Shown here: positions 19,950-22,611 of the stretch, piece after piece
Position numbering within the stretch: the stretch's first letter is position 1
How the letters are laid out: each line of letters opens with the position of its first letter
DNA from: Candidatus Woesearchaeota archaeon
GTDB lineage: Archaea; Nanobdellota; Nanobdellia; Woesearchaeales; UBA12501
Direction: 5' to 3'
DNA: 64,000 nucleotides
Assembly (NCBI GenBank): GCA_030651375.1
Contig: JAUSFM010000016.1
Coordinates: 1-64,000, forward strand
Notes under the pieces: generated by a model
Database searches by the model: none
Told to the model about the DNA's origin: nothing
The model's input: only the letters and a program-made list of their open reading frames with translations
Position numbers and translations under genes: made by a program

Positions 19950-20279
19950 ATGACAACCGACATCAGCCATCCCGTACGGAATGCGTTTCAGGAACTGGGG
20001 CACCGAGCACGCGTTGCGGCGACCAGCGCCTATGTTGCGCTTCCTTTTCTGATGGCGAGTGTGCCGAGTGTTGCGTATGGGCATGAGACAGGAGAGGCGC
20101 ATTCGCATATAGGTGATCATTGGGTAGCGGTTAGTATTGCCGCAGGTCTTGCCGGTACAGTTATCTATAAGGGGACTAATTACGCTACGAGAGCTCGTTC
20201 ACCGACTGCCCGATTTGTTGCTCATGCAGCCACTGTAGCCACTCTTAGTGCTATGGCCATTGCTGCAAATTATTTGTAA
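19950..20279 (+). CDS. Small membrane protein with SVAYGHETG motif, paralog 1
   Basis: This 109-residue protein has a hydrophobic segment at about 25-40, then SVAYGHETGEAHSHIGDH, then two more hydrophobic segments (52-70 and 88-108). The His cluster directly after the first hydrophobic segment resembles metal-binding N-termini of exported proteins. A paralog lies at 20918-21238; the block around the motif is about 86% identical at DNA level (77 of 90 bases by my alignment), while the rest has diverged. A TATA-like TATTTAAAG lies about 27 nt before the ATG. Function is unknown. Confidence 0.6.
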   Translation: MTTDISHPVRNAFQELGHRARVAATSAYVALPFLMASVPSVAYGHETGEAHSHIGDHWVAVSIAAGLAGTVIYKGTNYATRARSPTARFVAHAATVATLSAMAIAANYL

Positions 20280-20377
20280 ATTAATGAGAGAATTTTTTCT
20301 TTCACAACCCAATATTTCCCATAACCTTCTCCTTGTCAAACAATTGCTTTAAATAGAAAAAGAGTTTGTGTTCTGGT

Positions 20378-20689
20378 ATGCCCTACACTCTTGTTTTTGA
20401 TGAGGTGATGAAAAAACAGCTCGTCAAAGCGGCAAAGAACCAGCAGCTGAAAGAAATGTTGACGGCTATGTTTGACGAAATTGAGCAAAAGGGTCCTGAC
20501 GCTGGTGTGCTCGTTGATTCTCATTTGTTTATCTATGAAATGAAGAGCAAACATCCGCCCGTTCGGCTCTATTTCAAACATCACCTTGCGACAAACGAAA
20601 TGTATGTTTTTGAGTTTGAAATGAAAACAAGCCCTAAAAAACAAAAAAAGACGATTAACAAACTACGGTTTAAGGCAGGAAATCTTTAG
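20378..20689 (+). CDS. RelE/ParE-like toxin candidate
   Basis: This 103-residue basic protein has a RelE-superfamily layout: YTLVFDEVMKKQL strand-helix, a second helix (LKEMLTAMFDEIEQKG), then strands LFIYEMKS, VRLYFKHH and MYVFEFEMK, and a Lys-rich end. RelE-fold members cut ribosome-bound mRNA, while ParE-like ones hit gyrase; residues do not decide between them. A TATA-like CTTTAAATAG lies about 27 nt before the ATG at 20378. The antitoxin-like gene is on the opposite strand, overlapping its stop by 4 bp, instead of upstream in an operon. Confidence 0.6.
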   Translation: MPYTLVFDEVMKKQLVKAAKNQQLKEMLTAMFDEIEQKGPDAGVLVDSHLFIYEMKSKHPPVRLYFKHHLATNEMYVFEFEMKTSPKKQKKTINKLRFKAGNL

Positions 20690-20838
20690 AATCCGACATC
20701 TTTTCGGGTGAACTTTTTTCCGTCAGCAAGATTTCGCTCAAATTCACATAACCGCTGGTATAATGAGGTCTGGCGAAGTGTTTCAAGCTCGGTCTGCATC
20801 TGCTTATATTCCTGTTTTGGAATAGTTACTGTTTCCAT
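20686..20838 (-). CDS. Antitoxin-like protein, 50 residues
   Basis: The ORF from the ATG at 20838 encodes METVTIPKQEYKQMQTELET and continues to 50 residues with a helical, charged middle and a KKFTRKDVGF end. The start (VTIPKQEY + helix) is typical of archaeal RelB-like antitoxins. It is tail-to-tail with the RelE-like gene. Its TATA element is one arm of the inverted repeat at 20862-20895, which it shares with the paralog gene on the plus strand. Confidence 0.6.
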   Translation of the reverse strand: METVTIPKQEYKQMQTELETLRQTSLYQRLCEFERNLADGKKFTRKDVGF

Positions 20839-20861: not shown

Positions 20862-20895
20862 TTTATATACTTTTCGCCACCAAAAAGTATATAAA
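20862..20895. promoter_or_regulatory. Inverted repeat containing two divergent TATA elements
   Basis: TTTATATACTTTT (20862-20874) is the exact reverse complement of 20883-20895, with an 8-nt spacer. Each arm holds a TATA box, one placed about 25-30 nt before the antitoxin start at 20838 and the other before the paralog start at 20918. The symmetry would let one bound dimer control both genes. Confidence 0.6.
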
Positions 20896-20917: not shown

Positions 20918-21238
20918 ATGGACATCGGCCAAAGAACAATAGAAATTGCACGCGACGTTGGACACCGTGTACAACAGGCAGCAACAAGCGCCTATGTTAC
21001 ACTTCCGATTCTGATGGCGAGTGCACCGAGTGTTGCGTATGGGCATGAGACGGGACAGGCGCATCAACATCCGGTTTCACCGTATGAACTTGTATTCTTA
21101 ATCGGAGGCATTAGTTTAGGAACAGATCTTATCAAACTTGGTTGCACATCTGATTATAATAGAAAATCTGCTGGAGCGTGCATTAGTACAGGAGTTGCTT
21201 TGCTTGTTGGAACACTAGCATATGCTTCATCGCATTAA
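20918..21238 (+). CDS. Small membrane protein with SVAYGHETG motif, paralog 2
   Basis: This 106-residue paralog of the protein at 19950 has a hydrophobic segment at about 24-42, SVAYGHETGQAHQHP, and further hydrophobic segments at about 55-75 and 85-103. The His residues of the cluster (H-x5-H-x-H pattern) are kept in both paralogs. The message appears leaderless from the TATA arm at 20883-20895. It ends 8 bp from the ftsY stop on the other strand. Function is unknown; secretion with metal binding is a guess. Confidence 0.6.
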   Translation: MDIGQRTIEIARDVGHRVQQAATSAYVTLPILMASAPSVAYGHETGQAHQHPVSPYELVFLIGGISLGTDLIKLGCTSDYNRKSAGACISTGVALLVGTLAYASSH

Positions 21239-21246
21239 GAAATAAG

Positions 21247-22611
21247 TCACAGCCCAATACTTCCCATAACCTTCTCTTTATCAAACACTTCCAAATCATC
21301 GTACTTCTGGCCAGTGCCAAAATAAGAAATTGGTTTCTTGGTGATGTACGAAACAGAGAGCGCTGCACCACCTTTTTCATCAACATCTGCCTTTGTCAGA
21401 ATGATACAATCAAATGAAATCGCCTCATTAAACGTCCGTGCCTGTTCAACGCAGTCGTTGCCCGTGATGCTTTCGCCGACAAAAATCTTGAGGTCAGGTT
21501 TCGCAACCCGCACAATTTTTTTCATTTCGTCAATCAGGTTGGTGTTGCTGTGCATCCGGCCGGCGGTGTCAATCAGCACAACGTCAATGCTTTTTGCGTG
21601 GGCGTATTTTACCGCGTCGAATGCGACGGCAGCAGGATCCGCACCATAATCGTGCTTGATAACTTTGACGCCCAGCTTTTCGCCGTGCTCCTCAAGCTGC
21701 TGAATGGCAGCGGCACGGAACGTATCCGCAGCCGCAATGACAATTGTCAGATTATGTTTCTTCAACAAGTGCGCCAGTTTTGCAATCGTGGTTGTTTTTC
21801 CGCTGCCGTTGATGCCGACGAACGAAATGATGAATGGCTTTTCTTTTTTCTGCTTGATGCGAGCGAACAAATCAATAGAAGGGAGGTCAAAAAGGTCTGA
21901 TACAGAGTGTTTGAGTGTTTTCTGGATATGCTCTTCAAGTTTGCCACGCGGGATGCGTTGTGCCACGAGACTTTTTTTCAGGTCATCGCGGATTTTGTCG
22001 ATGACTTCGACCGCGACGTTGTTTTCCAAGAGCGCAATTTCAAGATCGCTAAAGACGTCTTCAAATTTGTCGTCTGACAGCGTGGTGGTCGTGATGGATT
22101 CTTTGAAGCGGGTGAAAAAGCCTTTTTCTTTGGATACTTCTTCGGTTTCTTCAGATTCTTTTGGTTCTTCTTCACGCTCTTCTGATTCAGCTTCTTCCTC
22201 TTCTTCAGATTCTTCTTGTTCTCCTTCTTCAGCTTTTGTTGGTTCTTCTTTTTCTTCTTTAAAGATGCTTTCTTTCAGCCGTGAGAAAAATCCTTTCTTT
22301 TCTTCTTTTGGAGTTTCTTTTGTTTCTTCAGCAACTTCTTTTTCTTTTGGCAGTTCTGTGATTTCTTCAAGTAGTGCTTGTTTTTGTTCTTCTTGTACTG
22401 GTTTTTCTTTTTGAGGTTTTTTCTCTTTTTTAATTTTTATCAGCGTTTCTTTTTTCTGCCCCTTTATGTTTTCTTTTGCCTTTTCCTTTGTTGCCGGCTT
22501 TTTTTCTGTTTTCTTTTCTTTTTTTTCTATAGTTTTCTCTGATTTTTCATCTACGTCTTGTGTAAACTTTTTCAGCGCGTCCTTCAGTTTATCTTTTAGA
22601 AATCCGAACAT
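21247..22611 (-). CDS. ftsY: Signal recognition particle receptor FtsY
   Basis: This 454-residue SRP receptor GTPase pairs with SRP54 at the membrane. Residues 1-175 form an extremely Lys/Glu/Ser-rich A domain, longer than usual and probably flexible. The NG domain follows with GINGSGKTTT at about 263-272, DTAGRMHSN and TKADVDEKGGAALS. The P-loop GSGKTTT and the closing GTGQKYDDLEVFD are canonical. Its ATG at 22611 overlaps the prefoldin gene end by one base, in an aIF6-prefoldin-FtsY operon. Confidence 0.95.
   Translation of the reverse strand: MFGFLKDKLKDALKKFTQDVDEKSEKTIEKKEKKTEKKPATKEKAKENIKGQKKETLIKIKKEKKPQKEKPVQEEQKQALLEEITELPKEKEVAEETKETPKEEKKGFFSRLKESIFKEEKEEPTKAEEGEQEESEEEEEAESEEREEEPKESEETEEVSKEKGFFTRFKESITTTTLSDDKFEDVFSDLEIALLENNVAVEVIDKIRDDLKKSLVAQRIPRGKLEEHIQKTLKHSVSDLFDLPSIDLFARIKQKKEKPFIISFVGINGSGKTTTIAKLAHLLKKHNLTIVIAAADTFRAAAIQQLEEHGEKLGVKVIKHDYGADPAAVAFDAVKYAHAKSIDVVLIDTAGRMHSNTNLIDEMKKIVRVAKPDLKIFVGESITGNDCVEQARTFNEAISFDCIILTKADVDEKGGAALSVSYITKKPISYFGTGQKYDDLEVFDKEKVMGSIGL

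Follow-up and report, generated by a model that had tools for sequence, protein, structure and literature searches.

The stretch analysed here (the window) is 64,000 nucleotides of contig JAUSFM010000016.1, from a Candidatus Woesearchaeota archaeon (assembly GCA_030651375.1). It carries a toxin candidate of the RelE fold and a small antitoxin candidate that face each other on opposite strands and overlap at their stop codons. We consider it likely that this pair is a RelE-superfamily toxin–antitoxin module of type II that has been recast as a cassette with two inward-facing promoters, in which these separate promoters, and not operon order, would govern dosage. The features of the pair are as follows.

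20378..20689, plus strand: toxin candidate, 103 amino acids, RelE fold, family A (reading frame, alignments, model, Foldseek)
20686..20838, minus strand: antitoxin candidate, 50 amino acids, two helices and an extended tail, without a DNA-binding half (frame, alignments, profile match, model)
20686..20689, common to both genes: TTAG, 4 bp with both stop codons inside (sequence)
20348..20355, plus strand: toxin TATA box TTTAAATA, 30 bp 5' of the toxin ATG (read in the sequence; position kept in relatives)
20862..20869, minus strand: antitoxin TATA box TATATAAA, about 31 bp 5' of the antitoxin ATG (read in the sequence; position kept in relatives)

The toxin frame runs on the plus strand from ATG 20378 to TAG 20687-20689, and the antitoxin frame on the minus strand from ATG 20838 to TAA 20688-20686. 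These coordinates and the shared TTAG confirm the original prediction of a RelE-like gene and an antitoxin-like gene that converge with a 4-bp 3' overlap. The prediction also held that the layout departs from the co-directional, antitoxin-first rule. It does, and the departure reaches far beyond the window locus.

Convergent layout in four toxin families

The family A toxin was searched for in 145 relatives (13 matching), in 371 genomes of the phylum (28 matching), and in a scan of genome contigs (37 loci). After copies of one place were removed, 48 distinct loci remained (loci are cited below by L numbers and genomes by G numbers). The antitoxin was recognised at 42 of them, and the layout was convergent in all 42/42. 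Among the other six, three toxins run off the contig end and three have no recognised antitoxin. Two of the latter toxins are broken; the third is intact (L057/L013, genome G014), and its sole convergent candidate, which has a TATA-like box, is marginal (E 0.016). Two antitoxins were labelled partial: L041 is cut off by the contig end, and L099, although divided in the search output, has the full 50-residue frame. The stop-to-stop gap was -12 at 21 loci and -4 at 10, with other overlaps at nine and small gaps at two. At the loci with a 12-bp overlap (21/42), the C-terminal toxin residues (LKS, SES or LES in many cases) arise from reading the conserved Leu-Gly-Phe-stop of the antitoxin in antisense; therefore, the end of one protein dictates that of the other. 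The named homologous loci lie in metagenome-assembled genomes titled Woesearchaeota, Nanoarchaeota, Pacearchaeota and Diapherotrites, with one 'uncultured archaeon' and one 'bacterium'.

The layout is common to other toxin families. Family B toxins, which are YafQ/YoeB-like, were found in 38/371 genomes, and 39/41 of their loci with an antitoxin were convergent (30 and 9 from two locus sets), exactly 4 bp being shared in 20/30. The two remaining loci (L144, L147) form a classical co-directional operon. In the toxin tree these two rows are sisters (96/93); most forks are open and the direction of change is not readable. Two broken family B toxins (L166, L168) have no recognised antitoxin. All three family B toxins tested exceeded the NCBIfam RelE/StbE cut-off. 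Several family B antitoxins (L135, L137, L139, L142, L145, L160) carry RHH-like N-terminal heads and are still convergent; RHH_1 (PF01402) was above cut-off in one of six tested (L135). Two tandem family B cassettes, each convergent inside and with differing antitoxins, were observed at L138 (G214:C7). At L132 (G248:C16), a single TGA interrupts the toxin while the antitoxin is intact; decay, sequencing error and recoding are indistinguishable there. Family C comprises L165, whose ParE-type toxin scores above the cut-off of PF05016, and its relative (L226), both convergent; these loci were reached through the antitoxin or a weak toxin match and are uninformative on frequency.

Family D was found in 71/318 genomes; the window's own genome has it at two places. 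From a longer list, the 30 loci with the best scores were fetched, and all were convergent (30/30). Their partners were identified by motif in 17 cases and by inspection in 13, and a partner profile built from one half recovered the held-out half in both directions (15/15 each way). Three family D antitoxins chosen for an AbrB-like head (L243, L257, L267) were all above the PF04014 MazE/AbrB cut-off and convergent. The antitoxin head thus seems to have been exchanged in families B and D while the orientation was kept. In the window's own genome, one family D toxin (L251, G000:C14:37391-37699) has a convergent antitoxin-like open reading frame (ORF) one base away, and the second lies at G000:C15:159698-159979.

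Canonical ParE/RelE toxins (PF05016), present in 193 genomes of the same phylum, served as a control, with 30 loci taken in order of score. At 29/30, a candidate antitoxin, often of AbrB or RHH type by eye, lies upstream in the same direction; at one of these loci (L180), the candidate is a fragment and the toxin next to it is broken. Some control loci also have frames open on the other strand, and on inspection none resembled the antitoxins of the convergent cassettes. The convergent arrangement thus belongs to particular cassette families; neither the phylum nor the method accounts for it.

The two proteins and their inheritance

Neither the window toxin nor the other family A members scanned matched a toxin family of Pfam or NCBIfam above cut-off; cut-offs of curated toxin families were reached by families B and C. 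A sequence search of the PDB gave no useful match for the window toxin. Its AlphaFold2 model, built from an alignment of 32 relatives (predicted local distance difference test score, pLDDT, 92.6), consists of a strand, two helices, four strands and a helix. The best Foldseek match was E. coli RelE in the RelBE complex (4fxe_E, E 7.5e-5, template modelling (TM) score 0.81 by target length); entries for PfiAT, HigB2 and YoeB came next. Toxin or toxin–antitoxin titles occupied 43 of the first 44 rows, and the remaining row was titled hypothetical protein HP0892. Judged by the fold of this model, the window toxin belongs to the RelE superfamily, within RelE/ParE. The original prediction had called the toxin RelE-like and had taken a lack of similarity to RelE or antitoxin families as grounds for giving up the idea; Pfam and NCBIfam sequence profiles do show that lack, and the fold contradicts it. 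No relationship between the family A and family B toxins was seen by sequence (profile probability 1.1%).

The antitoxin model (pLDDT 90.3, 31-sequence alignment) has two helices between extended ends. In profile comparison, the family A antitoxin matched the family B antitoxins with a probability of 97.6% (E 3e-12). The latter match PF02604 (Phd/YefM) at about positions 36-72 of 74 only, below cut-off. PF02604, which includes an N-terminal DNA-binding half, was absent from the nine families listed for 31 family A members. Because the family A antitoxin matches antitoxins that resemble only the C-terminal half of PF02604, it resembles a YefM-type antitoxin reduced to the end that binds the toxin, minus the DNA-binding half. 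The antitoxin-like character given to the minus-strand gene in the original prediction is upheld by the same match. The PADLOC defence library gave no useful match for family A or B; the antitoxin had a single match, to CARF, at chance level (E 0.039). Two family A antitoxins (L111 1799-1966 and L117 1795-1962, both minus strand) carry a seven-residue insertion in the first helix, equal to one coiled-coil heptad.

Both frames are real genes, since they have homologues in other genomes and both evolve as protein. In a single-sequence search with the own genome counted, toxin homologues were found in 13/145 genomes and antitoxin homologues in 17/145. The proportion of nonsynonymous differences (pN) was below that of synonymous differences (pS) in 465/465 toxin pairs and 899/903 antitoxin pairs of family A, and in 325/325 and 489/496 pairs of family B, respectively. 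Toxin and antitoxin distances correlate (r 0.64, 0/2000 permutations), which would be expected of two genes that move, or are passed on, together.

At 12 family A loci, the toxin is broken or has no standard start while the antitoxin is intact; L046 lacks only the start. No intact family A toxin clearly without an antitoxin was seen, L057 being a possible exception. A toxin and its antidote would be expected to decay in this asymmetric way, and part of the asymmetry is explained by the toxin gene being twice as long. No convergent toxin accompanies four of the family A antitoxins (L234-L237). At L236 (881-1322, minus strand, genome G391), the antitoxin overlaps a co-directional gene of 70 amino acids, which may reflect re-pairing with another toxin; we take this neighbour to resemble a DUF4258-type protein.

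As in type II modules, the toxin and the antitoxin are encoded by adjacent protein genes that are inherited together. A co-directional operon with a shared promoter was found at none of the 42 loci, most of which have TATA boxes at both ends. The shared operon, a feature that usually helps to define type II modules, is missing from the window pair.

Promoters, message ends and flanking repeats

Archaeal promoters were read by the TATA box and B recognition element (BRE) consensus. In the 60 bp 5' of both genes, a TATA-like octamer lies mostly at -33 to -27. A score of at least 7/8 was reached at 21/28 toxins and 25/28 antitoxins in family A, 14/17 and 15/17 in family B, and 20/28 and 25/30 in family D; shuffled sequence reached it in 26-29%. 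The spacing from TATA box to start suggests leaderless messages. The co-directional family B toxins (L144, L147) show no TATA box by eye and start two bases past the antitoxin stop. In the window, a BRE-like stretch (GAAAA) stands immediately upstream of the antitoxin TATA box. Across family A, the A-rich stretch 5' of the TATA box is richer at antitoxins (p 0.006). A stronger antitoxin promoter as a general rule was rejected, as the sequence trend from which such strength would be read holds in family A and is not significant in family B (p 0.21).

T-runs were found downstream of the antitoxin and the toxin in 35/41 and 31/41 stretches of family A, and in 8/30 and 21/30 of family B. Terminators inside the partner gene were nevertheless rejected as evidence, because permuted synonymous codons yield as many T-runs. 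The original prediction had proposed that base-pairing or interference between the converging messages adds a layer of control. Pairing of the two messages is possible; the T-runs, no commoner inside the partner gene than codons predict, lend it no support.

The same null speaks for the view that this is an ordinary RelE-type system, packed tail-to-tail by genome compaction without regulatory meaning. According to passages of PMC2174442, convergent overlaps are commoner in Archaea than they are in Bacteria, and a convergent overlap of 4 bp is possible with four tetramers; the overlap length is also variable, mostly -4 and -12, with some of -23 to -26 or longer and a few small gaps. However, packing by chance would not preserve the same opposite-strand partner in 42/42, 39/41 and 30/30 loci against 29/30 co-directional canonical toxins, and we regard compaction alone as a rather unlikely explanation.

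Direct repeats flank 12/63 cassettes of families A and B and 4/29 of family D. They were found at 0/30 PF05016 loci and 0/277 random window units (families A and B against PF05016, Fisher p 0.006). The two copies in the window are as follows.

19998..20345, no strand assigned: left copy of the duplicated stretch, comprising part of the gene for a small GHETG protein and an ftsY 3' fragment (repeat comparison)
20960..21290, no strand assigned: right copy, extending into the 3' end of ftsY (repeat comparison)

Positions 19998-20102 and 20960-21064 are 82% identical, and 20302-20345 and 21247-21290 are 89% identical. The left copy, which carries the 'MASxPSVAYGHETG' gene part, extends to the TATA box of the toxin and stops 32 bp short of the toxin ATG. 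At L051, the right copy of a 79-bp identical repeat (1319-1397, 1999-2077) begins 36 bp before the antitoxin ATG; at L134 (1141-1277 and 1940-2076), the right copy likewise begins 36 bp before the antitoxin start. The direct repeats flanking L051, L134, L146, L241 and L262 are about 30 to 137 bp long and 94-100% identical. No empty insertion site was found downstream of ftsY in relatives of the window or beside the neighbour gene in relatives of G148, where gene order is not kept. A search of viral contigs found no relatives of the family A or B toxins. Plasmids yielded no family D relatives and three cyanobacterial RelE/StbE relatives of family B (about 40% identity). The window neighbour genes, namely FtsY (by Pfam) and what are presumably aIF2 gamma, prefoldin and eIF6 from their translations, mark an archaeon.

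A domesticated, non-toxic RelE-fold protein regulated by the small ORF, with no toxin–antitoxin function, would agree with the failure of family A to reach any curated toxin family. We consider this improbable, given the patchy occurrence (28/371 genomes), the frequent decay of the toxin with the antitoxin kept, the direct repeats at the cassette edges, and the layout common to families that do reach RelE/StbE or ParE cut-offs.

Still less probable, in our judgement, is that the minus-strand message itself acts as the antitoxin in the manner of type I systems, as an antisense RNA pairing with the toxin mRNA at its 3' end. Its geometry would be similar to that of txpA/RatA. It would also be like that of BsrG/SR4, as described in part of PMC3874152, and the coding overlap supplies some complementarity. 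Against this, the minus frame is under selection as a protein and related to antitoxin proteins, and its overlap with the toxin frame is as little as 4 bp or none. An unnoticed co-directional antitoxin upstream of the toxin, with the convergent ORF a bystander, would restore the classical order seen at L144 and L147, and we give it hardly any credence, since most family A toxins have their own TATA box (21/28) and flank genes are seldom common (29 matching combinations among 138 family A and B flanks, some of them within-genome copies).

Balance of toxin and antidote and relation to known systems

In the two-promoter cassette that we favour, each gene would be read from its own leaderless message. 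The toxin would presumably cut mRNA at the ribosome by analogy with RelE, and the 50-residue antitoxin may wrap it with two helices and the tail. An excess of antitoxin would be set by promoter strength, with the antitoxin promoter steady and stronger than that of the toxin, not by first-gene position, and the toxin would be freed when synthesis or stability of the antitoxin drops. No autorepression would be expected of the family A antitoxin, unlike operon-type antitoxins, because it is without the DNA-binding half. As the convergent geometry makes the 3' ends complementary, those of the converging messages could pair, or the polymerases could collide.

Several observations weigh against this reading. 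None of the family A members scanned passes a Pfam or NCBIfam cut-off for toxins or antitoxins. Constraint on the toxin is moderate, with pN/pS about 0.5-0.6 among the few close pairs. The L236 antitoxin stands without its toxin and is followed by a co-directional small gene, possibly another toxin. The RHH-like antitoxins of family B and the AbrB-headed ones of family D are convergent, so the layout does not depend on antitoxins having lost DNA binding. The BRE-like difference between antitoxins and toxins is not significant in family B (p 0.21).

We tentatively extend the proposal to a large class of mobile type II cassettes among DPANN archaea that abandoned the operon, although we would not bet on it. 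Such cassettes would hold RelE-superfamily toxins facing exchangeable antitoxins (bare helices, RHH-headed or AbrB-headed) between two promoters, with promoter strength and message pairing or collision setting the balance; each would be a discrete insertion unit that ends at the promoters and leaves long target duplications.

Textbook type II control relies on a shared operon, with the antitoxin first, coupled translation and autorepression. That several toxin families within a single archaeal phylum keep an operon-free layout suggests that toxin and antidote are balanced differently there. The two co-directional relatives are an internal control that makes the need for operon coupling in toxin safety directly testable. 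Genome screens that require co-directional pairs would miss convergent modules. We class the cassette as a type II variant that its fold places in the RelE superfamily and that is without a shared operon. No convergent type II pair was found in the titles, abstract openings and some passages of the open-access literature, an absence that is not proof; the nearest layouts there were the M. tuberculosis relBE2 operon with a separate antisense RNA (passages of PMC9325379) and type I pairs (passages of PMC3874152).

The RelE fold of the window toxin, the RelE/StbE-level scores of family B toxins and the sub-threshold match of the family B antitoxin to the C-terminal half of Phd/YefM (36-72 of 74) link the cassettes with RelBE, YefM-YoeB and DinJ-YafQ. 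Those modules are co-directional bicistronic operons with autorepression. Here, in contrast, the genes are convergent with a promoter-like box for each, and no DNA-binding half is present in the family A antitoxin. The higBA module has a reversed order and is still a co-directional operon. The reversed-order hipAB/HipE, as far as passages of PMC8262856 describe it, is likewise not antitoxin-first but remains a co-directional operon. The aRelE-aRelB complex of Pyrococcus horikoshii (1wmi) is a weak fold match to the window toxin (TM 0.52-0.60). There, too, an archaeal RelE is paired with a small antitoxin. A table note on an unclear DNA-binding domain (PMC4803016, citing Takagi 2005) presumably refers to aRelB. 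The type I systems BsrG/SR4 and Fst share inward-facing promoters and overlapping transcripts, but their antitoxin is an RNA, according to parts of PMC3874152, and here it is a conserved protein. In M. tuberculosis relBE2-asrelE2 ('type IIb'), a RelE-type toxin gene is also faced by a convergent transcript; as presented in passages of PMC9325379, that system comprises a relB2-relE2 operon and a separate antisense RNA, whereas in the cassettes studied here the convergent gene is the antitoxin.
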